NCBI RefSeq assembly: GCF_026151205.1
Contig: NC_087074.1
Location: 6,820,001 to 6,884,000 of the forward strand
Direction of reading: 5' to 3'
Length of the DNA: 64,000 bases
DNA from: Bolinopsis microptera
Taxonomy: Eukaryota > Ctenophora > Tentaculata > Lobata > Bolinopsidae
Below are positions 14,561 through 60,382 of this stretch, piece by piece. Position numbers and translations under genes: made by a program. The notes under the pieces were generated by a model, which was not told the DNA's origin, searched no databases, and was given only the letters and a program-made list of their open reading frames with translations. Numbering within the stretch: position 1 is the first letter of the stretch; each line of letters begins with the position of its first letter.

Positions 14561-14566
14561 AGCAAC

Positions 14567-28162: not shown

Positions 28163-28264
28163 ATGGCTGCCCATGTAGAGAAGTGCAGATCGTCCATTGA
28201 GAAATTTCTGGTGAAATATCCTGCTGTCGATGAACTCGTAGGGAAAGCTTCAAATGCTACAAAG
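28163..28264 (+). CDS. REEP5: receptor expression-enhancing protein (REEP5/6 type), first coding exon
   Basis: REEP5/6 (TB2/DP1/HVA22 family, yeast Yop1) proteins shape tubular ER with paired membrane hairpins. This exon encodes MAAHVEKCRSSIEKFLVKYP and AVDELVGKASNATK, then the donor AAG|GTATGT in phase 0. An acceptor-like TCTCTTAATAG sits eight bases before the ATG, so a non-coding 5' exon is likely. Exons 2 and 3 carry the DP1 core; two alternative last exons give 299 or 176 residues (human REEP5 has 189). The gene spans 23.5 kb, with introns of 2,076 bp, 708 bp and about 19-20 kb, and the last intron houses another receptor gene. REEP5 and REEP6 are not separable here; the symbol denotes the group. 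Confidence 0.88.
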
Positions 28265-30340: not shown

Positions 30341-30528
30341 GTGAGCAAGGTGAACCTGATAATGGGAGTGATTGCGTTCACAGCAGTGTGGTTAGCTATC
30401 GGATACGGTGCACCTTTCCTCTGTGACTTCATAGGATTCGTCTTCCCCGCTTATCTTTCCTTCAAAGCTGTAGAGAGTGCTGATACTCGTGACGACACTC
30501 AGTGGCTCACATACTGGATTGTTTACAG
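30341..30528 (+). CDS. REEP5: REEP5/6-type protein, exon 2
   Basis: Bounded by the acceptor ACACTTCCAG and the donor TACAG|GTAATT. It encodes residues 35-96: the first hydrophobic hairpin (VNLIMGVIAFTAVWLAIGYG), then LCDFIGFVFPAYLSFKAVES and the family hallmark DDTQWLTYW (85-93). The exon ends in phase 2. Confidence 0.93.
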
Positions 30529-31236: not shown

Positions 31237-31371
31237 CTATTTCGGTATCCTGGAATTCTTCGGTGACTATCTTCTCTTTTGGATCCCCTTCTACTCTCTC
31301 ATCAAGTGTGCATTCCTTCTCTGGATGGTTAACTACGAAGGTGCCAGTCTCATATACTCTCGTTTCATCAG
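31237..31371 (+). CDS. REEP5: REEP5/6-type protein, exon 3
   Basis: Joins in phase 2 after CCCCAG and encodes SYFGILEFFGDYLLFWIPFY, then SLIKCAFLLWMVNYEGASLI and YSRFI. It matches the family block FSxAEFFSDxFLSWFPFY...KCxFLLWxxxPSxGAxxLYxRxIRP. It ends ATCAG|GTATGT, again phase 2, so any following exon must begin with one base completing AGx. Confidence 0.93.
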
Positions 31372-31550
31372 GTATGTGCTATTTTGTGTGTTATCCCTCA
31401 TCATGGGTTTAGATTATCAAATTTGACTGATCCCATGACAACAACAAAAGATAATTCGATGCACTTTAATAAGGGAACAGCATTAGACAACACTGTGACT
31501 ACGACTGAGTGAGATACTGGCTTTCGTCCAGTTGCTGTGTATTACTATTG

Positions 31551-31773
31551 TAGTGTGTAGTGTGTAGTGTGTAGTGTGTAGTGTGTAGTGTGTAGTGTGT
31601 AGTGTGTAGTGTGTAGTGTGTAGTGTGTAGTGTGTAGTGTGTAGTGTGTAGTGTGTAGTGTGAAGTGTGTAGTGTGTAGTGTGTAGTGTGTAGTGTGTAG
31701 TGTGTAGTGTGTAGTGTGTAGTGTATAGTGTGTAGTGTGTAGTGTATAGTGTAGTGTATAGTGTAGTGTGTAG
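31551..31773. repeat. 7 bp minisatellite (TAGTGTG)
   Basis: About 30 units, nearly perfect, with shorter variants at the right end. It begins 180 bp after REEP5 exon 3. The long open frame on the - strand (threonine, histidine, tyrosine, leucine repeats) is an artefact. Confidence 0.9.
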
Positions 31774-34700
31774 ATGCAATGATTTATTGTACGGCCACGG
31801 AAAGAGTTTGACGAAAAGTGACAGATTCTTACTAATATAATAACGATATCTAATCTGACATAATGACAAAGTGCTATAGGTACGAATACCTACTATTTTC
31901 TGAAATCGAACATTTCCTTGAATTTACATATTATTCTCCTCCTTAGTAGACTACTAATTTTAATTAAAACTATTCAGCTAAAAGGGCTTCCTTTAGTTAC
32001 AACTATCTATACTAACTGAATAGCGACAATTGACAGGTTTACCCTAGTAGTGACACATGTAACACTGTGTACAGTTAAGATATTATGTACAATGTACACC
32101 TTGTGGTACATTGTAATCTGTACACGCTATACACTGACCACCTTGTTCGTGTACAAGATCTCTGGTCAAGAGATCTGTGATGAAATTAAACATGATTACC
32201 GCAGATATACCGCAGATCTAGCTATTTGAAAAATAGTTGAGGTCGCAACGTGAGACAAGATCTACCACAGATATTTGTTGAACAGCTGTTTTTATATTTA
32301 ATTAAAACCAAGAGTGGTATTGTATCAAGTACGGAGTTACATAATAATGTGTTGAACGTTATGTACATCAGTATACATTAATGTACAATTAGTTCTCAGT
32401 ATACATTAGTGTATAATATTTACTCTGATGTATAAGTAGCTCTCTGAGAAGCTAGAAGTACACTAAGCTGTAAGAAGGTGTGAGAAACATAGTTCTGATC
32501 TAGTATAATTGTGAGTAGTATCAAATAGTTCCCCCTCCTTCCAGGATCTAGATGTCCTGATAAGGACTGACTATTACACGGAACAATAGTCTGGAACTGC
32601 AATAGTGTCACTGTGACAATATGTTATAGATCTGGCAGATAGTATTTGTAGCAATGTAGCAGTCTGAACAAAGCTCTGAGCGGGCGGTGACTTGATGTAA
32701 GCTGTTAAATATAACATCTGTTAAATACAGCAGAGAGTTGTTATAAAGATGTGAGAGTTGTTGTTATGTGGCACACAACAATGACTGGTCTAGTAATGGA
32801 TTTAGAGATAATATATACACCTAGTACACAGGTCACCTTATCATCACACGTTGTACCCTGGACAAATGTACTATTTACTAAAAGCTAGACATTAGACCCA
32901 TCTGGAGATCTGGCGATCTGCCAAACAGTTTATGTGAAATAACGTTACCTATTGGTATACTAATTCGACTGCGTTAATTATTGTCAGCAATTAATTGTCA
33001 AGATTTATCACAATTATAACAATCTTCTTGGAGTATAGAAACAAGCAAGGTCAATATGTCACGCATGCCTCAACGAAAGATAGATTAGAATATTCTTCGT
33101 GTAATTTACAAGAATTGTATGTATGATTTCGTCGAAAGTTCGACTGATGTGCAACTTGACACTTGACAGCCTTTAATATTAATAACTCTACTGTTGCCTT
33201 CTATTTTAAGGAGCTTATTTAATATTTACCCGTTCAGTTACATTAAACTTTTACCGAAATAATGTTCACTTACGTTACACTTTACGATTAGAAGAATGAC
33301 TATGTTATAATTTATCCATTTTCAGATGGTAATATTCCTACAAGTCAATCTTACCGTATATTAAAGAATATTATTAGATTAATTAGATTAATCAGCTCGT
33401 TTAAATGTTATTAATTGCTATTAAAAGAGTTTAGTTAGTTAGCTAGAGAGTCTGGCTTGCGCAACCAAACCTTTGTCAGCCAGTATTGCAGTATTTGAAT
33501 AAAATTCAGCGTTTAAATAATTTAATACAGCTACTGTCACTCCTGGTAAATTTGTTATATTTTCTTTGAATCCAATCTATATATTATTTCAGTTAGATGT
33601 TCGTTAAACCCAACATTTTATAATTCGTTAGCCCAACTGTAAGCTGGTCCAATTTCCAAACTAACCCTGTCTAGTCATCGACTACTGATTTCATGTATTT
33701 AGTGCAGAATCAAATCCCGATTTACTTGGATTGTCAATTAAATGGGAAAATAGGTCTGCATATATATAATAGTTAATCTCGAGAGTCGAGACTGTAATTT
33801 GATCTATGTTCTAAAATCTATTCCCCTGTATACACATGTGTGTAATGGAAGGGAGGCCATGACGTTACACATATATTAAAAAATCATATTCAAAACCAAA
33901 ACCCCACCATACCCACATTTATTGTACTGGAATATTTCAAGAAGCCATTTCGTATAGGATCAAACAGAAATAGTGTAGTAAGGGACCGTTCACATAATAT
34001 TACATATTATTTACTTACCATTTTCCTGGTAATTTTAAACTCCCTCCCTCTCCCCAAGCCAGTTTAAACTCAGTTATTGTGTAGAAATTACACAAGGGAA
34101 CTAGCTTTTCCCCCTTAAATAACATGTGAAGGATCTCTATTACACAAGTGCAAGCTAAGAAGGCACTCTCCGTAATGTGCATCACATTCTGCAGTACATT
34201 GTGCACACTTCCAAGAGGAATATTTCCTTCTCTTATTAACATTTCTGAAATTCTTCGTTAGATGCTACTAGAATAAAAGATTCCAATCCTAGCCACAGAA
34301 ACACAAACAATCTCTAAATACCATAAAATCTTAATACTTGTTTAACTTCAGCTGTTTAATTTAATATCGGTCCTTATATTTGACGGGCTGTATTTACACT
34401 AGATTCGGAGCATCTTTGATGGTCAGTTTAAAGAAAATCAATGCCATACTTTTCACGTCCGAGACTTGAAATGCCGCTGAAATATAAGTGTAGCTATTGA
34501 TCTAACCCCCTATTTACGCGGCGGTGCCCTATTAACTCAGTACCAGTACCATCCACTGAGTTTCCGGCTCCGGTTATGCAGAACCCTGTACCCTGATCCT
34601 GCTGGGTCCAGAATTATATCTCCCATTAAACAAGAAACTTCTGTGCCTTTGCGTAATACCGATTTAATAAAAGTAAGTTAAGTAATTCTGCAGTACTATC

Positions 34701-37700
34701 TGCCAATATATCTGATGGTGTATATGATTGCATTGATTGAATTGTGCAGCTGAGCCTGACTCATCCCAGGAAGTGCATTATCTTTGATTTTGCTCGAGAT
34801 TTTGTCTAGACAATCAAAATTCACAAGACCCACCTCTTCTTTGTTCGTCAGATTTAATCTTCACAATTTCTTTGGTCTTGCCAGTATGGTGCAGTTGTTA
34901 TTATCGTGGTCCACATACCTCAGTAACCCTGGTAACCCTAGTAACCATAGTAATAGTGACGATCCCATGAAATTATCTTCGTCAGACAGTTCTAGAATTT
35001 GATAAGGTCGGAAGCAGTTGCTTAAACCTCAATCATAATCAACATCGTCTAACAGCACAGTGCACACAACGGAGGTCTATCCCAGTAAAACGTAATTTAA
35101 GGAGAGGGTATGTTAATATCATGTTGTGTAGGGGTTTGTAAACAGGTTGGGTAGACAAATATTTAACCTTTCAAAATGAAGCTTAATGAAGTGTCTGGTC
35201 TATTGGTAACTCCGACTTACATTATCCGCATTTTTCATGTGCATTTTCTGCATTTTTTAGATATAATATCAGATTTAGATTCTCGCACCGCTGATCTGAC
35301 AGTAGTTTTGATCTATTTTAGGAAAACTTGTAAAGCTTGCATATTCAACAACTGCACGATCGTTGGGAAGGTCTTGTCAGGCTTGTCGAGAACCCTTTTA
35401 TAGCTGAAAGGGATGGTCACGTGACATGTTGAAAAGAGTGTAACACGTGATCTGACAGGGTCACGTGATCTTGATTGGACGGGGTCACGCACAGCTGTAG
35501 GAGTCAGACACTTCTTTCTCGAACAGTGCGTTACTTTTGCTCGAAAGCAATTAATCTTTTTAAGTTGCGAGACCTTGAACAAGCGAAAACTTTATGTTCA
35601 TGTTAAGAGAATATCTTGTTCGTGTCAATCCCCATCCTAAGCTCTTGATCCGCTGATTTTATGATTGAATTGCTGTTTGTTATGGTACGGTAGCTGATGT
35701 TATGATATTTATTCTTCAACTGGCGACATACTCCATTTTTATTAGTCTATCGGAGACTCTATCTATAGACTCTATCCATATCGTTACGATCAATATGACT
35801 GTTTTGTTACCGACTTTATCTTTCTAAACAAAAAGACGCGAATATTGTAATATTTCAAATGATCTTATAAAACGTGGCTTCATCCAGAGCTATCACTTTA
35901 TCCACGTTCCACGTAGCGGTCTCCTTTATTAAGTATTCTTTAAATGTAGCTTAATCCTTCTAAGTTTAGCCACGTTTTATATCGTTAATGATTTTATGAT
36001 TCAAAACTCTTGTGGATTGAACTGATCTTGAGATTGAATTGCTGTTTGTTATGGCCCGTTCGCTGATGTTATAATATCTCTTTTACACGATTCTTCTTGA
36101 TTTTTTCGAATATTTTAAAAGATGACTTGGACTGAAAATGGTGTTACGAGCATACTATTTTGGACAACATACTATTTTGGACAAATAAAACGCGAATCTT
36201 ATTATAAATAGAAATTTGTCCATAACTGTCACTTTAACTTTAGTAGGGCAACGGTAACCCATATTACGAACCCTTTAAATTTATGTAATATCCGGATAGA
36301 AACATTATTTACGAGTCGCATTTAAATTTAGCCTAAACCTTTTAAGTTGAGCCGGTTGTATATCGTTAATGGTCCTATAATTCAAACTATGAATTGCAGT
36401 GTAACGTTCTAACTTTCGTGGATTGAACTTTTGTGGATTTTACTGTCCTTGCAAACTCTGGCCATTGCCTTAATTGCGGAATATATTTGGTTAAATGAGG
36501 AGTAATTTGATGTTGAAATACAGATAGCTGACTTATCTTAGTATATTAGTACATTTATATTTTTGTTTATATTTTGTTTCGTTGTATCTCAAATTGGTCT
36601 AGTCTTAAAACTTAGGTACTGTCTTATTTTCTATTTTCATCTTGCATGCTTCTTCAATCAAATTTTGTAGTGGCCTTCCATTCTTTAGAAGGCCATGAGA
36701 ACATTAGTTCTCATGCACACTTCGACTGTTTACACTGTTTCACTTGATGTTTACACTGTTTCATATTTTACAATTAATATTTTCCACCGGCCGTATTAGT
36801 AATTTACAGACGCCCTAGTTGGACACCCTTGTTGGACACACTGGTGTTTCTCCTGATCCTCTAGACAACTAATTCCGTCTAGAAGATCCGGAAATCAAGC
36901 TTTTCAACACCGTCTGCCCCGTCCTTATTCAGCGATCGCTTTCATTCACACTAAAAGGAAAATTCCTAAAATAAACTATTGTACTGTTGGTAAACAAGCA
37001 ATATTATATTCGAGTTTAAGAGTTGTATGGCCGTTAAGTAAATCTAGATAGAGCCTAATATCAGCTGCAATCCACGTTTTACATTTTTATAGTATCCCCG
37101 GGCGACTATCCTGTAACCTGGGCGACTATATCCTGTATCCTGTCCTATCGAAATATTTGTTTAAAATTCACAGGTTAATGGTCTGTTACTTTTGTCTTTG
37201 TCTGACCGGCCTTACTGAGCTGCTAATTAGACTTGAGGTCTTGTTAACTCGTTTAGTTAGTAACTTTATAGTAGCATGCGATGTAATATGCGTTAGTAGT
37301 GTCACGTTTTAGATAGTAGTTTTAGTTTTAGTTAGTAGTGTTAGCTTTTATTTAGCAGTTCTTACTTTTTAGTCCCAGTTGCTCTCAGCAGATCCCATCT
37401 TGATACTTGGCCCGGTTACTGTGACCTCCACTATCTCCACTATCTCCACAATCTCCACAACGCTAAAGTAAAGGATAATCAGAGCTAGCTCCGGCCGTTT
37501 CCCCTGTGTCTGAGTGTTTACACAGAGAATCATTAGTGTAACAGGGCCTGACAGCTCACCACTACATATCCCTAATCCAGACTCTACACTCTACATGCTA
37601 TTAGTAATCAAATTACTTGCCCCGACCACCTCACACTGTGCGAGGGGCGGGAAGTTGAACTACCGCTTCATGGCTCCTACCGGTCTAATTCAGGGTTCCT

Positions 37701-38056
37701 TACACCCGATGTTTTACAATATGATCTTACAATCGTTCATTAATCATGCGCATATTATGCATTATGCAATCATGACTTTATAATGAACGATGTTTGAATG
37801 TTTAAGATGGTAAAGAAGGAGCCAGAAGAATATAGAACTCGCTTTAACACGTACGTGTTACACTAGATCTCCTGTGTTACACTTACCAATAACCAGATCT
37901 AACTGTGTTATGCTGGATAACAATATCAGTATATACTATATAGTATCCAGAATATAGTCAACAATTACCGATTATCCAGACCTTTATCAATATTCAGGAA
38001 GTTGTGTTGGGATAATGGGTACTTACTGAGAATCTACCATTTCTTTGTGAACACAT
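31774..38056 (+). other. REEP5 intron 3, left part
   Basis: AT-rich and largely featureless. 33983-34030 (GGGACCGTTCACATAATATT) resembles the terminus of the foldback at 3292 and may be a relic of it. TCACGTGA-type sites cluster at 35415-35480. Confidence 0.4.
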
Positions 38057-38294
38057 AACACGTACGAAACACGTAATCTATAAAACACGTTTAAATCTTT
38101 AAAACACGTACGAAACACGTAATCTTTAAAACACGTTGACGTAATCTTTAAAACACGTAATCTATAAAACACGTAATCTTTAAAACACTTACGAAACACG
38201 TTATCTTTAAAACACTTACGAAACACGTTATCTTTAAAACACGTACTCTTTAAAACACGTTATCTTTAAAACACGTTATCTTTAAAACACGTAC
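38057..38294. repeat. tandem repeat of (TCTTTAAAACACGTA)-like units
   Basis: Units of 11-16 bp built from AAAACACG plus TACGAAACACG or TAATCTTT. Every unit contributes an ACACGT word, giving a run of bHLH/bZIP-like half sites. Confidence 0.75.
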
Positions 38295-38422
38295 GGTCCC
38301 CCTCGGTGGGACGAACTCCTCATATCTTTATTCCTACACGGGCAGGAGTTAAACCCCTCTAAACATATATATTACAGTTGGAAAATGGGTTCCAGCCTGG
38401 ACTGTATTATGTAGCTAATATC

Positions 38423-38564
38423 GAAAGTAGTCATGGAAGCATGAAAACGATGTACCTCGAGGCGACCCGCTTGTGACTCGACTAGTTGTTAAAAGCCGAA
38501 ACTAGTCGAGTCAAAATCGGGTCGCCTCGAGGTACATCGTTTTCATGCTTCCATGGCTACTTTC
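38423..38564. repeat. long near-perfect hairpin (47 bp arms)
   Basis: The arm 38423-38469 pairs with 38518-38564 with one mismatch (for example GATGTACCTCGAGGCGACCC against its inverse). After a 5x5 internal loop a second perfect 13 bp stem GACTCGACTAGTT (38475-38487 with 38500-38512) closes a 12 base loop. No flanking duplication was recognised. Confidence 0.9.
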
Positions 38565-41500
38565 AATTGTAAGATTTATCGCATCATTACTTTTGGGAAT
38601 GACCACGACTTTTATTCAACTATTCAAGACCCTGCATATTGATAAATTGTATACCCATCAGCTGATAGCATTATACTGAGTTCTTTGCACGTGTCCTTGG
38701 AAAACAAAACAAAAACTTTAACACGGGTATCACAAAGATAGGACTTCAATTTACTTCTGAAATTTTAAAATTACATTGGTCCTAAGCCCCCTTTCCGTCC
38801 TGACTTGTGAGTAATAAAGCTATCGGAATATTAGCTCCGCCCTCTCGAATAGTAATCAAATTAAGGGTCGAACGTTGATGTGGGCGAAAGAGAATGCGGT
38901 GATGAATTTATATTAGAAAATACAACAACCTACCTTTTACTTGGTCAGGCCGGATAGAAAAGAGTGCGTTGTTCTGTGCATATTTTATATTATATATCTA
39001 ATCTGCAGGTGCAAATTTCAGCGTTTTCTTCTTTAGTTCTCTTCCATTTTTAGGTTTCTCTGATAATTGATGGAGCTGACGTAAGAGGAATACCTTGAAG
39101 TGTCCGTGTTTTTTCCGTGTACAAGCTTTGTGGAACGTAGTTTGTGTCGTTAGCTTACAGCTGATCCTTTTTTCAACTTCAGCATAGAGCCTGTGATGTT
39201 TTTTGATTCTTGAAGAGTCCATATTTCCCTAGTATCAATACGCGTCACGCAGTTACCACGTTTGGTAACGGATCTCTACTTGCGTATTTCCTCCCCTATT
39301 TAATCCATCTTTATCGTAAAGGGTTGCAATGTCACGTGTCTCTTTGACACGGCCACACGAACTGAAGATTTTCTCAGTCTGTACCTTAGTTTGACAGTCG
39401 AGGTTTTCTTGTCGAACTTCAGTACGTGTCGAACTAGAGTATGTGTCGAACTAGAGTACGTGTCGAACTAGGGTACTTGTCGAACTAGGGTACTTGTCGA
39501 ACTAGGGTAAGTGTACCTCCTATCCGTTTATAATTGGAAAAGGGGGATATTTGAAGGGTGGAAATAATCTTGGGCGTTCCTGACAGTTCAGCAGTTTTAA
39601 GGGTTTGGCTTATTTTAAGACAATGTTGCTAACTTTTCAGTAATTTGTAGGGTTTGTAATAGTTGTTCTTATTGTAATCATGTTTCAGAGCAACTTACAC
39701 GTCGTTCTTGAGTTTCTAGTTTTAGCCGTGTCATCAAGTTTCAAATTAGAAAAATCTTCCCCAGAAACGTCCAATTTCATTTATCAGAGAGATTTCAAAA
39801 ATGTTGGTTCAGTTGTCGTATGACCTGGGTTCAGTTGTCGTTTTGGGATTTATGCTGATTGGGCGCCCTGTTAACTGTGTGGGAACTAGATTCAATTGGG
39901 TTCCGTTGTCGGTCACCCCCTTGCACGTGCATTTAGTTTGACTGTTTGAAATCCTTTCATTACAGACAGTTCGACTTGACCTGCTTGTTAATCCTAACCA
40001 ATCCGGGAAATTCCTAACCATCTCTTTGAAATTTAATACCATGTCCTAACCAATGCCACGTCAAGTATAATGTAAAAACCACTTTGATGTATAAGATATA
40101 TGTAGGACGTAGGTCGGCTCCCGTAATTAAAGAACCTCGTAGAAGAAGCATATTGCAACATGTCCTGACTTCGACATATTATTTGACTACCAAATAAATT
40201 CAATAACTGACTCGGTTGATTAGGTTTTATGAGGCGAGTTTTAACGAAACGCTTCCCCCAGCACCCAATCATGCTTCAGAACCACTGTCACGTGCCACGA
40301 TCACGTGTCACAACAAGTGGCTCACGTCTCCACAAATACCCCATTCTATTGACAGCTCTTTAAGTTCTCCCTGTCAACCTCAGCCTAGTTGCGACGCATG
40401 TCAGGCGAGCAAGGTGGGCTAGTTACCTTGTCAGGGATATTTCCATGTTAACAAGACCACGTGATGCCAATATAAGGAGATATTTCTACATATTTTCTAT
40501 ATATATGTTAACAGTCAAGTCTGGTTTGTTATAACCAGACATCCCACAATTCCTCCCATCTTGGGGCAGCAGTTGTTGAAGTGAAGTTGGTATGGTCAGT
40601 TCCCTGGAACTGTCACAGAGTCTGTCAGGCTAGTTGTCAGACTGCTGATGAATTAGGATTTGAGGGAAAGTCTCTGCGTTAGCTCTCTTTCATTACGAGC
40701 CCCGAGCATAAAGCATTCAGCGCTTATTAAATCTTTATATATCAAATTACGTCTTGCTGGGTGATTTTATTTTTTATTACTGCCAAGTACAAAACTTCGT
40801 TAGGTATGGACTTTCTAGTTAAGAATTTAAATCGTTTCCGGGCAGATTTCATTTCGGGAAATTGCTGGAAGTGAAAATCATTTTAAGACAGCGAAAAGGG
40901 GCAAGTCATATCTCTTAAGCTGTATGATTTATGAGGATTTAAGGCAATTCAAAACGTATAGACCACACTTCAGAAAAGGTCGCTCGACAGTAAAGACCAC
41001 TTCCGGGTTGTGTTGATCATCAGTTCTCACAACTGACAGCTGTGGGACGTTTTGTTAAAAGTTACAATCTTTATGAACATATTAGGTCCTTAAGCCATCC
41101 CAAGACCAACTTCGACTTCCGACTGTATGCAAAGTCTCGCCCGTAAACGATGTGACTTCTTAACTGGAATGCCCTTTGGAAATCGAGCCACCAGCTTAAA
41201 TACAAAGAGGTCTTGCAGATCGAGCACTTTTAGCCCGTTAATAAACGCATTTTATATAATTTCGGTTAGAGGTCAGAGGGAATTACCAATAAATTAATTT
41301 TCTGCTGACTTTTTATATCCGTTGTGGAACCAGCGCGACACAAAGAATCCAGCTCCTTAATTTATCGGCTCTTCTTATCCTTGTCTCGTCTTTAGTGCTT
41401 CCTTGTGCCCATAAATTCCCGTTTCTTAACGTCCAAGGGAAGTTTGTGGGACTGAGCATGATTATAGCTCTTCGGAGCGGCTTCAGTACAACATAATTAT

Positions 41501-42128
41501 ATTCCAAGTTTTATGACAGTTTTTTCTCTCAGAATTATCCTAGTTCAAGTCAATATTCGTAATTCGTATGTCAGCGTTTATCGTTTACCAATATTCATAG
41601 GCCGATGAAAACTGAGGAATGCCTTACGAAAACCTCCCATATAGTATTTCCGTGGCTGTGGTTGCAATGCGCCTAGTCTACTGGAATGATTCTTCGGAAT
41701 TTCGCTGGATTGTACAACTTTCGTCTTGGTAGATTCCAAACACAAGGAAATTTTCCTTCTGGTTGGTAATATACTTAATGATGGAAGTATAGTGTATTGG
41801 CTATGCCCCGCTTACTAGTTTAGCTCTTTCTAGTCCCCTGCTACACGGCATGTAAACAGGGATTGGCTAGTTAGAGGCGGTCCGTGTAGGCCTTACACTG
41901 TGCTTTCAGCAATACTCATAGTATGTTTAGCAACCTCTTTTCTATAAATAGCTGCTTATTCCGGATATAATTTTTTGAATTCCTCGTAAACCCACGTGTC
42001 TATCAGAGTTTGATTTGAATAAATTACATCTGCAATTAACAACATCCTGTCGCAGAACAGATATTCCTGTTGACGTTTTACCCTACCTATTCACACGTAA
42101 CACGGTCCTCCTTTGCGGCAAGCTACTC
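38565..42128 (+). other. REEP5 intron 3, middle part
   Basis: No coding exon recognised. It includes the tandem array at 39410-39508. Short open frames lack family motifs. Confidence 0.4.
39410..39508. repeat. 17 bp tandem repeat (GTCGAACTAGAGTACGT)
   Basis: About six units, diverging in the last bases. The inverse word AGTTCGAC is also scattered at 57020-57130. Confidence 0.75.
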
Positions 42129-42187
42129 GAGAGAGAGAGAAAGGACGTATCACACCTTTATTAGTATCTGGTAACGTGAGGTTGTTT

Positions 42188-42269
<82 letters not shown>

Positions 42270-42312
42270 GACGTATCACACCTTTATTAGTATCTGGTAA
42301 CGTGAGGTTGTT
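42129..42312. repeat. (GA)n microsatellite within a 50 bp direct duplication
   Basis: GGACGTATCACACCTTTATT through AACGTGAGGTTGTT occurs on both sides of a GA tract of about 75 bp (42189-42265), in the same orientation. This suggests unequal exchange between GA runs. Confidence 0.85.
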
Positions 42313-42670
42313 GATTACCTCTCTAACTTGCTTTACAACTCTTGTACTGCTAACTGTTTCCTCTCTGCTGTCTTTTAATTTCAGTGCTCGTTTTCGTTAA
42401 CAAGGTTCTTGAAAGGTTGTAGATAACACAGTTGTAGGTGGAACTATTTGTTGCTTCTTATATTCATGATCTGATTAAGTTGTGTAGTGTTATTGAGTCT
42501 CATTTGATGATTCTTTAAGAAAATGACTGATTCTTCTAAATAGACTCAGTGATTAAAATGTATTGATGAAGATATCTTCATGATCGTGTTGTCTTCCCTT
42601 GGATAAACAGGCTTAAGCTTCCTCAATGCGGCCAGCAGATAGCTTTAAGGAATGTTTAAGTGTCTGTATA

Positions 42671-42753
42671 GTTTCTTTCATTAAAATTTCTGATTGCTTC
42701 TGAATAGACACTGAGTCTATTCAGAAACAATAAGAAATTTGAATGAAAGAAAC
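42671..42753. repeat. 83 bp near-perfect hairpin
   Basis: 39 base arms (GTTTCTTTCATTAAAATTTC and so on against the inverse GTTTCTTTCATTCAAATTTC) with three mismatches and a 5 base loop. The size and pairing are like a microRNA precursor or a tiny MITE. Confidence 0.8.
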
Positions 42754-45700
42754 ATCAAATCATGAAACTGAATAACACTACACGAATCCACCAGATTGTC
42801 TGTATAGTACTACTCGTGCGGTTGTATTTATTCAAAAAGCCATTTTAGAGTTTCTAATGAGTTCTATCGAGCTCTTCTCAAACACAAGGATATAACTTGT
42901 GAACTCGGCTAGTATATATGAAACATTTGTCATGGAATTGTAGAGGGAGTTAAGTGCCTCGCCGGGCTAAAGTAGTGGGTGACCTTGCTGTACGGCAAGT
43001 TAAATAAGGATATGAAACTACTAGGTTCCGTACAGATTCCGTACAGACTCAACTCTGCACCCGTGTCAATATGTCAATATGTTCATTATATGCAAGCCTC
43101 TTGATTTATAACCATTATTTTGTTTGTTTTTAATCCTGAAATCCTGTTGAAACTCCCAAAATCTGGGCGTCTGTCGTACCAGATTTAGGTCTTGATCTAA
43201 TAAGGAATGTTAGCCGCGATAAGTAACGCATGTCAGTCAGCAGTTGCTTTCTCTCAGCATCAATTGATTCCGTTCATATTTTGAAAGGTTCATCTGAGGC
43301 TCCCAAAAATGTAACCTAAAAATAGTCCATAATTCACTGATCAATAGAGATGTCAAATGATAGGTGACCACATGTTGGTACGTGGACTTCTCTACCGGTC
43401 AAAGCACAAACTGCCATATATAACACAAACTGCCATATATAACACGGATCACAAACGAACCTATCACGTGTTGGCCACACGAGTTCCAATGTCTCAAAGA
43501 GATACAGTATCTGTTTAAAACATAAAAGAGTGTTTATAGTTTGAGCTACTTGAGGAGAACCTGTCAGTTGTCGATTACAAGTGCACTTAGTCGCTCAGGC
43601 GCTCAATATATGACGGTGAGCTCACTTGAGTAGTCACTTTGTTTAATTTTATATGACTTTTGTCGGCAGATTTGTAGTTTTTTTTCCTTTTATGATAGTT
43701 TAGTGCGAGTCACATTTGAAATAGAAACTCGGGCTAAAAACAAGGTTTAGTTTTCCGTGGTCCGTTCCGGGGGAGCCAGTCTGTTTCTATGGTGATGATG
43801 GTGTTTAGGGTGCACGGTATTAATGGTGTACGGTAACCGTACGAAACCTATTAAGGAAAATATCTTCTTCTCACCTTGATAATATGTTGTTTGGCTGAAT
43901 TTAACATCTAATTGCAAATGGACCACTCGAGCTTACATAATCGCTAATGGCGCCTAGATTCTTGGCAACTTAGGTCATAGGAGCCTTTAAAGAAGTTCAA
44001 TATGACCATTGACTATAACCCTTTTGTTCAATTCAATATTTTTTACTTCTTGTCTCAAATCGGTAAACTAGGGGGCCTTTTTAAGATCTCTGGGGTCTTT
44101 TTAATTTTCAGCTAATCTTTACCAATATACTACTAATATAATTAATTGTAGCGAGGGTACTAAATATATGATTATTGTTCTTATGGTTCTGATGGTTCTA
44201 TTTCACTTGACCCTTCCCGAGACCATCATATTTATTGCCACCTAAGTCAAGTGATCACAAGATAAATAAGCAGTGTGTAACATAATGTGATAGGTCTCTT
44301 GCTGAGAAATTGAGCGCTGTTAGCTGATGATGATGATCTTTAGATTAATGAATAACCTATGTTGGGCCCATTATAAAATGAAGTTGGGGTTTTTCGCATC
44401 CACGTCTCCTTGTAACTGTATTAATATTATTAATTTTAAGAAAAGTTATAGTTTTGCGAGCCCGCATTTTAATCTAAATCCCTGTTCAAGTTTTTGAAGT
44501 CATTAATCATTGCACCCTGTAGCTGTGGTTGTGGCCTTTAAAAGCTTTCAGTTTTCCATCTCAATCGTTATAACTCTCCTTACTTTGATCAGTTATTTTG
44601 TTTAACAATAATATTCCGAAATCCTCATCTTCTTACTTTGTATAAGTTTGTAATTACGCTAAACGTTTGATTTGGAATCCCCGGACCCCGCCAGAATTCT
44701 GCCACGTTTTTTACATCACGAAGGTCAATTTTTATACCATTTTTGAGACATCCTAAAGTATCTGGTGGGTATATTGGGGCTAAACATTAATACAATAAAA
44801 GTGTTAAGTCGTTCTTCACGCAAACTTCTCAACTGAATATTCTAATGAAGAGTTACTGCATGATGTCCCCTGGGGTCTCAGAACTTGGAGCACTTTCGGG
44901 GGCTTTCCCAGGATGCTCCCCAAGAGCAGCTATAAATACATTGAGGTCGGTTAAATTGTTTCTTAGCGAGGTTCTACAGTTCGAAAGCTTTTAATAAGAG
45001 GAGGCGAGTATTAGGGTGAGTGTACTAGGGGGCAGTATGAGGGGCTTTGTGCTGACTTAGAGACGGCCGGATCAGTAGGATAGGTATTCAACGTGGGAAA
45101 TATCCTTGCACGGCTTCAAGAGTCTGGATTTTTGTAGTTTTATGAGGATTCCATAGGGCTGAAACATTATTTATGCCGAATTCTCAACAACTTAAACCGG
45201 AGAATCATGACTTAGTCTTTAAAGGGTTCCACGTACTTAGGACGCCATTTTCTTGACGCCAATAACAATAAAATGCACTATTGATACGATTAGGAATAGC
45301 GTTTACAATCACCATGAAATGAATATAATAATAATGTACATATAAATACACATTACAATAATATTAGAATATTCTAATAATAAAGTGGCCACTAAGTAAT
45401 GATTTTACTGGTCGCTCACGTGTAACAAGCACTCAACCAATAACAGCACTCTGTGTGTGTGTCTCACCCTGTCACGTGATACCACCTTGTCACGTGACCC
45501 CCTCTCCTTATACGGGCATCACGTGGTTCCCGACACTTGTGAACGGTTGAAACCGTAATCTCTGAAAGTAATTTATATGCAGAGGGGGGTGTTGTTGGAA
45601 GTAGCTGGTGTTGTTGTCATGGCGACACCATGCACCAGCGCAAACACTAGTGGTATACTAACTTAAGTTATTTTTATTACTTGATGATTGATCGTATTAA

Positions 45701-47900
45701 TAGTGCACTTTACTTCTTCACTTTATTTATTGATATGATACCGTGTCCCGGGTTAGTCTATCCTTGTCTAATTATAAATGGCAAATGATCAGTGATCATT
45801 GATCAAGCAGCTCAGTATACAACCACGTATACACTGTATCTTGTTCAATAGAATAACATGCTTATATTATGCTTGTACCTTGCCCTGGGGCACTCCTTTC
45901 TTTGTGTTCTTTAGTCATACCTTTGTGATCTTTGTTCCTGTACTGATCATTCGAGGCTTATACTCCAGAAACCATTCAAGTTGCAAGGAGACTGGTCTTA
46001 CGGTTTGTTCAGAAGAGTGTGTCTAGATTTAAATGAGCTTTAAAGTTAAACGTTGGCTAATTGATAAATGTCTAGATTTAAATAAGGTCTTGCTTTAAAA
46101 GTTGATAGTGGCTTATTGCTTAACTTGTTACTGTTAAATCCGCAGTAACGTCTTTACTTCTACTACTTGTACGAGTTGCATTTTCCTTCTAGTATCCGAA
46201 CCAAAGCTCGGTAACCGGTAGTTGATGGCTATTTTCTTAGAAGTACCAATGTTCTTAATTCCGAAGTTAAGTTGAGATTTTACTGATACGGTACATGCGT
46301 GAATGAACGTGAAATGAACAATCTCTGTGAACCATATACTGTTTCCTGACTCCGTTAATTTACGTGTGAACGCTAAAATGCATTTAAGGAAAAGCTTTTC
46401 TATCTGATCTCTAAGACATTCCTTGTTCAATTGTTAAGTACGAGACCAGCATATCTAAGGTATGAAGGTCTCGCAGACCAAGCTAACAGACACCTTTCGA
46501 AACAACAATCATGACGCAACAATCTTACATTACGGCAACACACTATTTCTAAAATAGTTTACCATCTCGTAAATATCCTATTTTTGACAGCTGCATTCTG
46601 CAGTTAACCCTCTTAAATGCAGCGTATGTCGGAAAACATTTAGCCGGGCCAAAACTCTCTGACGTAAAACTGAACCAGGGTGTATTTTGAGGCGATGACG
46701 AGGCGTGCCCTGCTCCGACAGTACCCGTGAAGGAAGCTAGCTGTTTGGTAGCTCCGTAATGCTACCCTCTCCACCAATACTCTATCCAAACAAGTCACTT
46801 GTCATTAAAATAATTTCACTAGTAGTTTTCCGGCGAACAATTAAGTTGTCCACACGGACAAGGAACCCGCCATATAAATAGCTGCTCAGAGAGCTCACAA
46901 CCCTGTCAACTTGACCAGCCCACACATACCTCGCACATTTACCTCGATCATTGCTTGTCAGGGGGATAATAATATAGCGCACATCAAATCAGTGACTCGT
47001 TTTCCCCAATTGCATTACTTCTTCAAAATAGCGAACAAAACCAGCATCCCCGCTATCTCCAAATTATTAAAATTAAGTGCCTACTCGCACTAATGGTGCC
47101 CTGACAAGTACTTTGAGATATTGCCGTCACCCAGCAACTGCTGTCATGCAACTCTCTGCCACGTGGGGTGAAGATGGCCGGTCCCCGCGTTCAGAGCTCT
47201 CCTCCAACTGGCTCTAAGGCATTAACAAGCCTTAACAGCTCCTTCAATTATACGCGCTCCAGCTATTTTACCAAATGCTCCAGGTATTTTGCTTTTTATG
47301 CGTTTTCCGCCTTGTTGAATTCTTGCTTATTCTGTCGAGTGGAATTAAGGACTCGGAGAAGCTTTGGTTCATTAACTGTTTTAAAGTTTTGCTCGTTGTG
47401 ATTCAAATTCCATTCTTAATGAAAGTTTAGCCATATCATTTGGGACTCTGCTACAGCTGTGTACTGATGTATTGCGAAGTGTTTAAATTCCCCTCATTGC
47501 CGGCCATCGGGCGTGCTTCAACTTTTCCTTTTACTTCAGCCGCTTCTATTTTATAGGTTTTTATCTTGGTCTCGTTGTCGTTATAACAACTCTTACTTAG
47601 ACGCTTCAATTTACAACTATTTGTGACAGTTGGGTTGACTAGGTATTGTTTTACGATTTATTGTTAGCAGTCGGTCTGTTCAAAAGTTTCTGTATTCATC
47701 AGCTGTGAAACAACCAAATTTTTGAGACACACTTCTCTCCTTTTCTGTTTCTGATACATACTTCTCGATTAGTTTTAGTGAGTCTAGAAGTCTAGACATC
47801 TGTTATAGCTAGGCACGCCCATCTTGCCACTTCAGTTTTGATAACGCACTATAAGGTCTCTTCAAAAGTTTCCATCCACTGTGTAACCTTATTTTAATTC
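42754..47900 (+). other. REEP5 intron 3, right part and promoter area of nested receptor
   Basis: AT-rich without recognised exons. 45415-45535 has four CACGTG-type sites (two as GTCACGTGA) and a CCAAT-like word (CAACCAATAACA). It could serve as a promoter for a transcript feeding the receptor at 47940, whose ATG is preceded by a splice acceptor. Confidence 0.35.
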
Positions 47901-47939
47901 TTATTTCACGACCGTTTTCTTTTCCCAGTGATCTCCAAG

Positions 47940-48980
47940 ATGTCAGATGAGAATCTACCGCACGTGTTCTATGAGACAGAGGATGAGTTGGGCCACTTCT
48001 ACAGTTCAACTGCCGACAAGGCTATGGGAGGAATGCTCATTATCTTCATGGTAATGGGACTATTCGGCAACATCGCGGCTACTTTATACTTCTGGGGTCG
48101 GAGGAGAGAGAACTTCCCGGACTATTTATATGCTGTAAACAGTATGGTGGACACCCTGATCAGTACTCTAGCTCTCCCCGTCATCGTGTCCCTCCTACAC
48201 GACCGAGACGCTATGTTTTTCAGCGACTACTCCTTCTGCTCCGCCTTCGCTCTGCTCTTTACCTTCCTCCAACGATACTCCATGTTTGTAGTGATGGTGA
48301 TTAGTGTGACCAGGACAGTAGCAATCTCCGTTCCCTTCCACACTGTCAAGGAGCCTCTCATCAAGATAGTGCTGCTGGTGTACGGAGTCCTTCTCTCTGT
48401 TACTTATATCACACTGTTCGCTATGGGCAAGATCTTTAACATCTACTTCAACTCCACTGTTTACTGCTCGCCCATATCCTTGATGGCGGACTGGGAGTGG
48501 ACATTATACATGATCATACACCTGCTCACGGCCCTGGTGTGCCCTCTGACAGTGTTTTTCAGTCTTATAATCAGCTGTAAGAGTCTGATGAAGAAAACAG
48601 TGCTGGGCAGTGAAGATGATAAGTTGTTCTGGAAGATATCCGTTACAATAGCGCTCTTTACTGCTGTCTTCCTTATCTGTAACATCCCTGTTTTCGCTCT
48701 CTACGTCATCGCTTCCTTCAAAAGATGGTTCAACATTGATGTCGACGCGGCTGCTTTTCTCCCAGAATCATTTGTGTACTGGTACGACTGGTTGCTGGCT
48801 GGAATCTTCCTAACAGTCCTTAATGCTTCCATCAACCCCTGCCTATACTTCTTCAGGATGCCCCAGTTTAGGATGTGGACATTTAAGAGATCCAACAGGT
48901 TCGGGATTGGCGGGGATTGTAGAACTGTTGATGCTTCAACTTCTCAACATTTGTCCATGCACTCCCATAACCAGTTGTGA
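47940..48980 (+). CDS. class A (rhodopsin-like) G protein-coupled receptor nested in REEP5 intron
   Basis: 346 residues. The ATG at 47940 is chosen because an acceptor (TTTTCTTTTCCCAG) ends 11 bases earlier, implying a non-coding 5' exon. Membrane segments lie at about 30-52, 64-86, 99-130, 141-163, 187-212, 231-259 and 281-306. Landmarks are GN44 in TM1, D71 in TM2, C100 at the top of TM3 with C176 in loop 2 (probable disulfide) and a glycosylation site N171-S-T. R125 lies in VTR in place of DRY. TM7 reads NASINPCLY (N299), an intact NPxxY-type motif. The tail is short and histidine/serine-rich. Codon use is richer in C/G at third positions than in the receptor at 14567. The gene is transcribed in the same direction as REEP5. 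The ligand is unknown. Confidence 0.88.
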   Translation: MSDENLPHVFYETEDELGHFYSSTADKAMGGMLIIFMVMGLFGNIAATLYFWGRRRENFPDYLYAVNSMVDTLISTLALPVIVSLLHDRDAMFFSDYSFCSAFALLFTFLQRYSMFVVMVISVTRTVAISVPFHTVKEPLIKIVLLVYGVLLSVTYITLFAMGKIFNIYFNSTVYCSPISLMADWEWTLYMIIHLLTALVCPLTVFFSLIISCKSLMKKTVLGSEDDKLFWKISVTIALFTAVFLICNIPVFALYVIASFKRWFNIDVDAAAFLPESFVYWYDWLLAGIFLTVLNASINPCLYFFRMPQFRMWTFKRSNRFGIGGDCRTVDASTSQHLSMHSHNQL

Positions 48981-50349
48981 TTTGTGAAGACTACTTTAAC
49001 TTTTAACCCTGATTATTGGTGTTTAGCTGTTACTGCTGAATTTATGTGAACAGTAAACGGTACATCACACTATATTATTTGATATTCCATTAAAAGTTTT
49101 TGGAATAGGCTCCATCCAATCAGAACTAACAAAGCGATTATATTTTACATTTACTAAATTAATTAATGAAGTAACTAATTACTGAAATTATATTATGTAA
49201 CATTAAACTACTGTGTGACGTAATATGACGGAAGTATTTACCTTACAGTGTATTTATCTGTATTACATCACTCACTTTTAAACAAATGTATTGCATCAAT
49301 TCTCCAAACTGGGTGTTACTTATTGAGTAGTGTATGTGAGGGGTGGACCAGTCACATGACCAGGGTGGACCCTCCTCGGGCCTCCTATACCACCTGTCAG
49401 CCGTGCAGCTTTGTATATTCAGTTTTAAAAGACACAACTGAACAACTGGAGTAGCGCTGATTTATGGTAGCGATCGGAACTGTAGTTTAAAGAAATTACG
49501 ATTATTAAAACCTATAAGTTTACGCGCGCAGAACAAAGAAAACGATGCAAAACCCCGTTCCTGAGTCTGAGAACCATAGTCCAGGTCTAGCTTTAATATG
49601 GTCCAGTCTAGCTACAACATAATGAAGCAGGTCACAAGTTTAAACAAGTACTGGAAATTATCCAGGCTGTGTGTAGCTATGACGCTTCTCAGTGACTACT
49701 ACTCACCACTGTGTGTCTCTACACAGTTCTACTAGGGACCTGCTCACCACACCTGATACATAATGCTAGCCGGGCCTGTGCTACATTGTATCACTGTTAT
49801 TACAACACGTAGTTATGGAGCTACATACCTGCCCTGGAATCTTCTCTTTCTTCCTCAGAGTAAGTACTAGACTTTCTCATAGTGGAGGAAGTCTTTGTCT
49901 GTTTGTGGAGATTATTCCTACAAGTTACAACTTGAACCAGAGGTATAAATAAGATTAAGCGCAATGTCAAGATATGTGATAGTACACAAGTTGATACATT
50001 CTCTGCTTGATGAAATAAGAACCTCCTGTAGATCAACGCTTTATATCACGTGTTTAATATTGTGTCCATCGTGTATAGAATAATAACGCACGTGTTATTA
50101 TATAAGGCACGTGTGAACCCCGGCTAGGACCGTTACTCAATCAATTGTTGTAGGTAAGTTGTGAAACAGAAGTGTGGATACAAAGCAGTACAGTGAGACG
50201 AGTATCATGAGTATAATGAGTGTTTTCATTGTGGTGACTGAGTTCGAGTGTGTATGTTCTGTCTCGTGTTAATTAGAGATATTAAGATAGACTGCCACAA
50301 TGTGGCATATTGAAATTAAGAGCGAAACTGTTACTAGCCTATATTACAG
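48981..50349 (+). other. REEP5 intron 3, 3' end
   Basis: 3' flank of the receptor gene and intron up to the acceptor CCTATATTACAG (ends 50349). No other exon recognised. Confidence 0.45.
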
Positions 50350-50824
50350 GGGTATGATGAGAGAGAACTGTGAGATAGTAGACGCAACACTACAAGCAGT
50401 TGACGAAATACAAACAAACATACAGACCTACGTTACAGACACAATAACCCCTTCCCCTCCGTCGGTGAAGAGTGGGTTACGACAAGGTCTCATGTTGGGC
50501 ATGTTAGCTACTGAGACTCACATTGAACCTGCTGGGGACGCGGCTACTGAGACTTACATTGAACCTGCTGGGGCTCTATCTGCTGAGGAGGACTCAGAGC
50601 CCAGCTCACCTGGATCTCCCGGGTCTCCTGGTCAAGTTCAACTAGGGGGTTTTGGAGAGTTTGATAATATGGGTTTAGAGGAGGATGTTTCCATGGTAAC
50701 ACCGGGTGATAACATGGTAACACCTGGTAATAACATGGTAACACCCAATGATGATGTGGTGACACCAGGGGAAATGATAGAGGACTTAATGAGGAGCGTC
50801 CAGCCTGAACAAGTTCAGGAGTAA
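50350..50824 (+). CDS. REEP5: REEP5/6-type protein, alternative last exon A (long acidic tail)
   Basis: An acceptor (CTATATTACAG) opens this exon with one base that turns the AG left by exon 3 into AGG (Arg), exactly the phase required. The frame then reads GMMRENCEIVDATLQAVDEI and QTNIQTYVTD, which parallels exon B (GMIDEVVDRVEDVADQL, DDYVQD). It continues for about 120 further residues: two copies of ATET(H/Y)IEPAG, a SPGSPGSPG stretch and four MVTPG(D/N)N-like repeats, ending PEQVQE-stop. The protein would be 299 residues with a long, acidic, proline/threonine-rich cytosolic tail. An ATG at 50300 could alternatively start a small independent gene, but the phase match and the shared motif favour an alternative exon. 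RNA evidence is lacking here. Confidence 0.6.
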
Positions 50825-51559
50825 TGTTGTGATTCAGAGGAGGATCCTCGTTAGACTAACTTTACAGACTTAACACTGACTTTTCGAAATGTAAACTCTC
50901 TAAACTTGAAAGTTTAAAAGACTTTTCTTCACGACTGTAATAACTTAGTAAGATGTGTGGTGTAATCTAGCTGGTTTAGAAGATGTTACCATGGTAACAG
51001 TGTAACACTAGCTGGTGAGATTGAACTGACTATCCTCTGACAAACAAACAGTTTACAATTTTACAATTTTACCGAGAGGAGAACTTGTTCTACCTGGTTC
51101 TGCACTGTTCGTTTCTTTATTTGTATATTCGTTAATAATCACTTCTTAGAGGTGACATGTTCTGACAAGACTCACACATATATTTCTTTAATATTTTCTA
51201 TTTTTAGACAAACTGTTTAATGATTTTATTTGTAATATTAGTCGCATGTTGACAGTATTAATTCGTTTCTCTTTGAACTTTGGTAAGTAACTGATTATTT
51301 TACCGTTTGACAAACAATCTATCACACAAATACTATAATATTCTGATTAAATCTGATTGACTAAATATCTAGAGGGCATTAACTAGTTAAAATGGAGTAT
51401 AGAGGGCATTCCTATTTTCTAAAACAATATTAGTCACTCTCCGGTTGAGATGCGACAAGATGAAATTCCGGAACAAGAACGTAGCTAATACACACTCTGA
51501 GTGTAAAGTGAGTGTCACTTCATAACTACATTCCTGGTGTTAACCTGTTTATTGTTCAG

Positions 51560-51665
51560 GCCGTTCCTGAAGCAGAAGCAGGGTATGATAGATGAAGTTG
51601 TGGACAGAGTTGAGGATGTTGCTGACCAGCTGGACGACTATGTTCAGGACGATAAGGAGGATTAA
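51560..51665 (+). CDS. REEP5: REEP5/6-type protein, last exon B (standard tail)
   Basis: The acceptor TTATTGTTCAG is followed by G, completing Arg, then PFLKQKQGMIDEVVDRVEDV and ADQLDDYVQDDKED-stop. 'IRPF-LK' continues the family's conserved RxIRPFFLKH segment, so this is the ancestral tail, an amphipathic acidic helix. The product is 176 residues. Confidence 0.9.
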
Positions 51666-51696
51666 GTAGTGTGACGAGGATGGGGAAATGAGGGAC

Positions 51697-51945
51697 AGTG
51701 TGTTACACTGTGTTACACTGTGTTACACTGTGTTACACTGTGTTACATTGTGTTACATTGTGTTACAGTTTGTTACAGTTTGTTACATTGTGCTACACTA
51801 TGTTACACTGTGTAACATTGTGTTACACTGTGTTACATTGTGTTGCATTATGTTACATTGTGTTACATTGTGTTACATTGTGTTAAACTATGTTACACTG
51901 TGTTGCACTGTGTTACAGTGTGTTACAGTTTGTTACAGTTTGTGA
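51697..51945. repeat. 10 bp minisatellite (TGTTACACTG)
   Basis: About 24 units with A/G/T changes in the second half, starting 31 bp after the REEP5 stop. It is therefore in the 3' untranslated region. Three open frames through it are artefacts of a stop-free 10 bp unit. Confidence 0.9.
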
Positions 51946-59164: not shown

Positions 59165-59398
59165 TGCCTCGGCTTATGACTATGAGTATGAGTTGTTCCC
59201 TTTTCAATTATTTTACCACCGGTGTCTTAGGTTATAAATAAATAAACGTAAACGTGGGCCAGTGAGCCACAGTTTTAAATACTTAACGTACGCTTTACTC
59301 AGTAATTAGAGTTAGAGGTCTTAACATACGTTTGTGATAAAGTAGTCCGAAAAACTGCCCTTATATTGATTCAAGCTACGCTGATTATAAGTTTGAGG
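59165..59398 (+). promoter_or_regulatory. conserved promoter and 5' untranslated region of receptor gene
   Basis: TATAAATA at 59233-59240 lies about 160 bp before the ATG. This block is shared almost base for base with the pseudogene copy at 7830-8055, including GTGGGCCAGTGAGCCACAG and GTGATAAAGTAGTCCGA. The duplication therefore took the regulatory region along with the gene. Confidence 0.5.
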
Positions 59399-60382
59399 AT
59401 GAATGACACTTTGACCTTGAAAACTCATAACAGAATTTATGATGGCTTGATAGCGTGCGGGCTCTTTGTCTGCTTTGTGATCGGACTACCGGGAAACTGT
59501 CTAGCTTTGAAATATTTCCTCCACACAAAGAAACGAAATCTTTCAACTCTTCTTTACATAGTGGCATGTTCTATCGATATAGGTTCCTCCGTCATTCACC
59601 TTCCAGTTGCTTTTAGTCTGCTGAACAACCGAACTGCTGGGTTTCTCAGCAACTCTGTTGTCAACTCCATTTGGAATTCTGTCCTCCTGCTGCTTCAACT
59701 AATGTCCATATTCGTGGTTATGACACTGTCGTTATCACGAGCGATTGCCATAAAGTACCCTTTCTACAAAATCAACAAAAGAGCAGTTCTTGTGTCCATC
59801 GCTGTTTACCTCCTTTACCATTGTATTTGCAACTCTCTACTTTTTGTCTATCCCGAAATGGCTTACAACTACGCTACGTCACATTGTGACGTATCTCCAA
59901 TACCCCCAGAATCTTTACCGCTGTTAATCTGCTACATGTTTAACTACAGCGCTTGTTTGGGAATACCTCCAATGATCGTGTTTCTGACGTTTCTTGTCTC
60001 GATTGTTATGCTCCGGAAAGATCCTGTCGCAAACAATGTTTCCCAAAGGAAAAATCAACATGCTTCAATCACCATTACTTACTTTACAGCCCTCTTCCTC
60101 TGCTGCAATTGCTTCACTTTCATCAACTGCTTTCTCCTAACTTATACCCTCCTGTTCAAGATATATCCGGGTCCAATATACGATAACTATGTTATGTCCT
60201 GCTACAGCTGGCTTCTAAGTGAAATCTTCTGTACGGTCTTAAACGCTTCTCTAAACCCACTGCTCTATGTTTGGAGGATGAGGGAAATGAGGTTGTGGAT
60301 TGTTGGAATCCTCCCAAATAGAGCAAGCAGTGCTTCTAGGGTGATAGCGAATACGAGTAATGAAACTGAGACCGAACTGTAA
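59399..60382 (+). CDS. class A (rhodopsin-like) G protein-coupled receptor, intact paralogue of the 8 kb pseudogene
   Basis: 327 residues from the ATG at 59399; that ATG is conserved in the duplicated copy, whereas the longer open frame has no upstream ATG. Membrane segments lie at about 15-40, 50-74, 90-118, 129-151, 174-204, 223-252 and 266-292. Landmarks are PGN33 in TM1, D60 in TM2 and LSR (R114) in place of DRY. TM7 has NASLNPLLY (N286), followed by the VWRM start of helix 8. N2-D-T is a possible glycosylation site. The coding region is one exon. It shares with the receptors at 14567 and 47940 the non-canonical TM3 end and, with 47940, the NAS(L/I)NP(L/C)LY TM7, marking one lineage-specific family. 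It lies between REEP5 and the CAMSAP gene on the + strand. The ligand is unknown. Confidence 0.88.
   Translation: MNDTLTLKTHNRIYDGLIACGLFVCFVIGLPGNCLALKYFLHTKKRNLSTLLYIVACSIDIGSSVIHLPVAFSLLNNRTAGFLSNSVVNSIWNSVLLLLQLMSIFVVMTLSLSRAIAIKYPFYKINKRAVLVSIAVYLLYHCICNSLLFVYPEMAYNYATSHCDVSPIPPESLPLLICYMFNYSACLGIPPMIVFLTFLVSIVMLRKDPVANNVSQRKNQHASITITYFTALFLCCNCFTFINCFLLTYTLLFKIYPGPIYDNYVMSCYSWLLSEIFCTVLNASLNPLLYVWRMREMRLWIVGILPNRASSASRVIANTSNETETEL

Follow-up and report, generated by a model that had tools for sequence, protein, structure and literature searches.

The last intron of a REEP5-like gene of the ctenophore Bolinopsis microptera contains, upstream of the ordinary terminal exon (exon B) and in the same strand and phase, a second exon-like sequence (exon A), and we consider it reasonably probable that exon A is a duplicated and diverged copy of exon B that serves as an alternative last exon. 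Both a duplication of the exon and a second form of the protein's cytosolic end are supported by the in-register similarity of A to B, their equal phase, their comparable acceptors and the intact frame of exon A. The original prediction, which had called an origin by exon duplication plausible, is strengthened by the same features.

The window analysed here is a stretch of 64,000 nucleotides (C3:6820001-6884000) in an assembly of 264.7 Mb and 232 contigs. Four plus-strand exons (28163-28264, 30341-30528, 31237-31371 and 51560-51665), joined at GT-AG borders, encode a 176-residue protein in which the TB2/DP1/HVA22 domain (PF03134) is recognized at residues 70-144 (95.4 bits, 1.9e-27). The coding part of exon 1 (MAAHVEKCRSS...ATK) was placed by in-frame spliced translation and by a protein search of the organism's own genome, exons 2 and 3 by the PF03134 match and their borders, and exon B by spliced translation, the own-genome protein search and a paralogue on C5. 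Exon 3 closes with ...FI and the two bases AG of an incomplete codon (...ATC AG) at 31371, directly before the donor gtatgtg, and the last intron is 20.2 kb long. Exon B, a canonical REEP5-type terminal exon, has the opening PFLKQKQGMIDEVV and the translation PFLKQKQGMIDEVVDRVEDVADQLDDYVQDDKED after the Arg, its start being given as PFLKQKQGMIDEV or PFLKQKQ. The REEP5-type paralogue on C5 (C5:6073075-6081833, about 6.073-6.082 Mb, with an intron of ~8 kb) has the ending RPFLLKNEEKID... in a single exon (...KILRPFLLKNEEKIDARLEKVTGKVNKYVDDAKREGKEI), without a split at the Arg preceding PFL. This single-exon ending points to exon B as the ordinary ending of the REEP5-type gene. A long reverse transcriptase ORF (PF00078; 25614-27479) lies shortly 5' of REEP exon 1, and a 10-bp tandem repeat (ACACTGTGTT, 24 copies, 51695-51937) follows right behind the stop of exon B, where it is likely to be part of the 3' UTR.

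Exon A (50350-50824, plus strand), a candidate alternative terminal exon, comprises 30 codons that resemble those of exon B, a 127-residue acidic tail and a TAA stop. It had been claimed that both candidate last exons follow good acceptors and start with a single G completing the arginine codon left open by exon 3, and this is borne out: exons A (50350) and B (51560) each stand behind a CAG acceptor, the first base G of each makes AGG (Arg), and the fusions of exon 3 to A and of exon 3 to B are both in frame and open, each with a stop. Following this G, exon A has 157 open codons, terminated at 50822-50824. Its acceptor scores 7.65, at the 98.8th percentile (top 1.2%) of the 3859 plus-strand AG sites in the window, and the same matrix gives 8.58 for exon 2, 7.59 for exon 3 and 8.32 for exon B. 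This matrix is a generic, assumed one, used without training, and it is rough, since the last exon of the C5 paralogue obtains only 2.99. The open frame of exon A exceeds what chance would produce: none of 4000 dinucleotide shuffles was stop-free across the 157 codons and only four of 4000 across the 127 codons of the tail, and not one of 30,860 overlapping 157-codon placements in the intron stretch 31900-47800 (both strands) was open. Between 50824 and 51560 the hexamer ATTAAA occurs at 51346, an occurrence estimated to be likely by chance at this base composition, and AATAAA does not occur.

With the splice junctions as the starting point, the first 30 codons of A and B can be aligned gap-free, giving a BLOSUM62 sum of 34 at offset 0, compared with at most 18 at the other offsets from -8 to +8. 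The original prediction had aligned the openings as GMMRENC... and GMIDEV..., which is the wrong register, because exon B opens with PFLKQKQ. Exon A ranks first among 1175 sites with YAG, the required phase and 30 open codons (mean -31, s.d. 11), collected from both strands of the window and five loci (L003-L007) with the exclusion of sites within 60 nt of the acceptor of B; the runners-up are two sites at 16, one of which is A's own frame shifted by four codons. The sum of 34 was reached by none of 2007 30-mers taken from 10 TCP1 stretches. Among 80,756 stop-free 30-residue frames from the window and the loci (without L001, and with some loci overlapping), the best match to A is B and that to B is A, the next sums being 27 for B and 26 for A; the C5 paralogue, ungapped, scores 26 against B. 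Local alignment of A with B scores 36 versus 18.6 ± 3.7 for shuffles (fraction 0.001 of 2000), and DNA identity is 41/92 versus 23.6 ± 4.2. The spacing from the junction to YV.D is equal in A and B, while the C5 paralogue requires a 3-residue gap, and the PFLK/PFLL opening common to B and the C5 paralogue is missing from A. Neither in the window nor at the C5 paralogue loci was a third terminal-exon copy prominent among the top matches listed.

A sum of 34 is attained by 6.7% of shuffles that leave the hydrophobic positions (VILMFYW) in place, and by 0.8% and 0.2% under two broader definitions of hydrophobic residues, so that most of the signal comes from an amphipathic pattern common to both exons. 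The Eisenberg moment, a measure of sequence and not of structure that was taken here on hand-chosen segments, is 0.351 for A (shuffle fraction 0.016) and 0.551 for B (0.002). The likeness of A to B could therefore be due to convergence of the amphipathic pattern, although a coincidence, while possible, seems unlikely given the position and phase of exon A.

A coincidence of two amphipathic helices is what has to be assumed if exon A is a separate small gene, or part of one, lying within the REEP intron in the same orientation, an explanation that we regard as unlikely. Translation would then begin at the ATG at 50354 (156 residues), and the acceptor at 50350 would take either a trans-spliced leader or a short 5' UTR exon from a TATA promoter near 50100. 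Several features fit such a gene. The sequence ATG ATG lies 4 nt behind the acceptor of exon A. On the plus strand, a TATA-like box (TATATAA, 50099-50105) that could serve an independent transcript of exon A is followed by a donor-like GTAAGT (50154-50159), 196 nt before exon A, which may mark a 5' UTR intron; TATAWAR followed by GTAAGT 30-90 nt further on occurs only three times in the window (both strands), once at this place, the pair having been chosen post hoc. The same intron also holds, likewise on the plus strand, a nested single-exon 7TM receptor-like ORF (stop-to-stop frame, 47898-48977). In 15 receptor ORFs, three from the window and 12 further ones, which were used for the acceptor and codon-usage tests, the best acceptor-like site lies 4 nt before the ATG in one (W3) and within 13 nt in four. 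However, the ATG-near acceptors of these receptors are not consistently above control positions, the control fraction exceeding 0.1 in 11 of the 15.

The genome also contains genes resembling those of spliced-leader (SL) RNAs, as the nested-gene explanation would lead one to expect. The Hormiphora leader pattern followed by GT, with up to two mismatches, has 113 genome matches versus 50 for the reversed control, and its three exact copies are clustered at C13:12.81-12.89 Mb. These correspond to three SL RNA-like genes (C13:12811380-12894606), each with a leader-like exon, GT and a possible Sm site downstream, namely the stretch CACATCTTTTGG, which we take to resemble an Sm site. Within the window the SL-like motif has eight matches versus 8.4 expected, which is the chance level, and none near exon A. 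In Hormiphora, leaders and nested genes are common: 56% of Iso-Seq reads begin with a leader, and 2357 genes lie within others, many of them parallel to the host (PMC8527503). Such nested, trans-spliced genes are like exon A in being same-strand ORFs in a long intron with an acceptor beside the ATG (PMC8527503), but in-register similarity to the host's own last exon is unexpected in them. Thus a nested gene explains the anatomy of exon A but not its in-register similarity to B, and would leave unexplained why A, the closest counterpart of B, sits exactly at offset 0 from an acceptor of matching phase.

Both sets of features would be reconciled if exon A arose by duplication of exon B but is now used only in an independent transcript, via the same acceptor, encoding a helix and tail without the membrane domain. 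This would account for the in-register similarity together with the ATG ATG beside the acceptor and the promoter-like signals upstream; however, it requires one more step, and the donor and phase of exon 3 still fit use in cis, so that we hold it to be quite unlikely. There is also a slight probability, somewhat below the preceding one, that the acceptor at 50350 is used doubly, in cis from REEP exon 3 and by a spliced leader or a local promoter. The cis product would be an acidic-tailed REEP anchored in the membrane, and the second product a free helix-plus-tail protein translated from the ATG 4 nt past the acceptor. Double use overlaps with service as an alternative terminal exon, and its probability accordingly stands outside the sum of those of the other explanations.

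The tail of exon A beyond YVTD consists of 127 residues with a net charge of -19. The acidic tail with internal IEPAG and MVTPG-like repeats that had been predicted is thus present, at 127 residues instead of the predicted length of about 120. Two 36-nt repeats (ATET[HY]IEPAG.., 50507-50578) contain the two copies of IEPAG, spaced by 36 nt; SPG is present three times (50606-50632), the copies differing only at third codon positions (0/0/7 pairwise differences by codon position); and four MVTPG-like units of 21 nt (50693-50776) differ mostly at the third position (12/6/20). The repeat periods of 36, 9 and 21 nt are each a multiple of three. In a DNA search of the genome, with simple repeats skipped, exon A had 26 matches elsewhere, all within the MVTPG block (query 742-803), and the MVTPG-like minisatellites are dispersed on C10, C12, C5, C3 and C1, one of them reading MVTPGN in one frame. 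Since similar minisatellites elsewhere also vary there, the third-position changes in the MVTPG block are discounted as evidence of selection. A repeat of this minisatellite-like kind may have contributed to the growth of the tail. Minisatellites with the unit CATGGTAACACC, which is like the MVTPG repeat of exon A, are found at C10:14888050-14888700 and C12:3365700-3366250.

Searches for known components in exon A gave no known domain (Pfam at E 0.1, NCBIfam at E 1, PDB at E 10) and no LC3-interacting motif [WFY]xx[LIV] in the tail, and Rfam at gathering thresholds had no match in the window. A transposable element or segmental duplication as the source of exon A was not supported, the protein search of its own genome having found exon A itself and one match with stops at E 0.16, and the DNA matches elsewhere being confined to the MVTPG block.

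Judged by synonymous codon usage, exon A scores -0.08 bits per codon, lower than any of 26 coding sequences tested in leave-one-out fashion (0.009 to 0.239), the REEP gene itself having 0.20 by the same measure. In an earlier model based on less data, the 135 ORFs presumed to be non-coding included 44 that scored at least as high as exon A. Six TCP1 loci entered the earlier model and 10 the later one, L016 being left out for a stop; 16 TCP1 loci were found and 11 tried, the remaining five having internal stops. Codon usage, by which exon A looks non-coding, was therefore rejected as proof of coding. Such usage would be accounted for if the exon were young or weakly expressed, but equally if it did not code.

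The non-coding-like codon usage and the minisatellite-like sequence of the tail are also what would be expected if exon A were a copy of exon B that is degenerating or not in use and has kept an open frame by chance. This is very improbable, given that 157 codons stayed open in none of the 4000 shuffles. By codon position, A and B are identical at 12, 19 and 9 of 30 sites versus 9.5, 10.0 and 6.0 expected; the second position exceeds expectation (p 0.0007), and the first and third are near it. With third positions near chance the copy would be old, and in an old copy stops would be expected under neutrality.

If, as we favor, exon B was duplicated and the resulting exon A later diverged into an alternative last exon, the exon 3 donor (31371) would have two possible partners. 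Splicing to 51560 would give the standard 176-residue protein, whereas splicing to 50350 would give the same membrane domain with a substitute C-terminal amphipathic helix (GMMRENCEIVDATLQAVDEIQTNIQTYVTD) and the 127-residue acidic tail. The tail would be cytosolic and is probably disordered. The substitute helix might keep the protein seated on the curved ER membrane, and the tail might recruit other proteins or limit crowding.

In its PF03134 domain and its C-terminal amphipathic segment behind ...RPFL..., the Bolinopsis gene is like other members of the ER-shaping REEP5/6 (DP1/TB2, Yop1p) family, which is characterized by two membrane hairpins, cytosolic termini and localization to the ER and from which the predicted A form differs by its second, diverged terminal exon and the 127-residue acidic tail. 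Splicing that changes the C-terminal end of a REEP protein is already known. REEP6.1, a retina-specific isoform of rod photoreceptors, gains 27 residues from exon 5 (PMC5142109), and a review describes this addition as an amphipathic helix (PMC9437294). REEP6.1 is thus like the A form in that splicing changes its helical C-terminal end, but it adds an extra exon, whereas in Bolinopsis the whole terminal exon would be swapped for one with its own stop and a long tail. The changed cytosolic tail had been described as a form not known in this family; an alternative cytosolic end is supported as a prediction, and REEP6.1 shows that a changed C-terminal end has a precedent. The accessible portions of the literature on REEP5 and REEP6 isoforms and exons contained no duplicated terminal exon bearing a long acidic tail, and a literature search for ctenophore REEP5 had no matches. 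Adjacent, same-phase, diverged exon copies are a feature shared with gene-internal exon duplication coupled to alternative splicing, from which the present case differs in that the copy is a terminal exon that acquired a tail. The terms of such exon duplication occur in a paper on metazoan G-alpha (PMC5896119). Ctenophore Iso-Seq data are described in PMC8527503 and PMC10232365.

Should the junction from 31371 to 50350 be used, a lineage for which a position as the sister group of all other animals has been argued would vary the curvature-sensing end of its ER-shaping proteins by duplication of a terminal exon, a route different from that of vertebrate REEP6.1, with a long acidic tail gained partly from repeat-like DNA. 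Were exon A transcribed alone, this would be a case of a terminal exon turned into a nested gene in a trans-splicing animal, and were its acceptor used in both ways, a duplicated, partly minisatellite-extended terminal exon would be on the way to becoming an independent gene without having ceased to serve the parent gene.

The window contains three single-exon 7TM receptor-like ORFs (14453-15571, 47898-48977 and 59306-60379), none of which has a Pfam match at E 0.1. The ORF at 47898 shows weak matches to solved GPCRs, the best at 1.4e-4, and has at least 114 genome-wide matches, itself included (113 of 621 candidates scored). By these matches, such ORFs possibly form a large lineage-specific receptor family.
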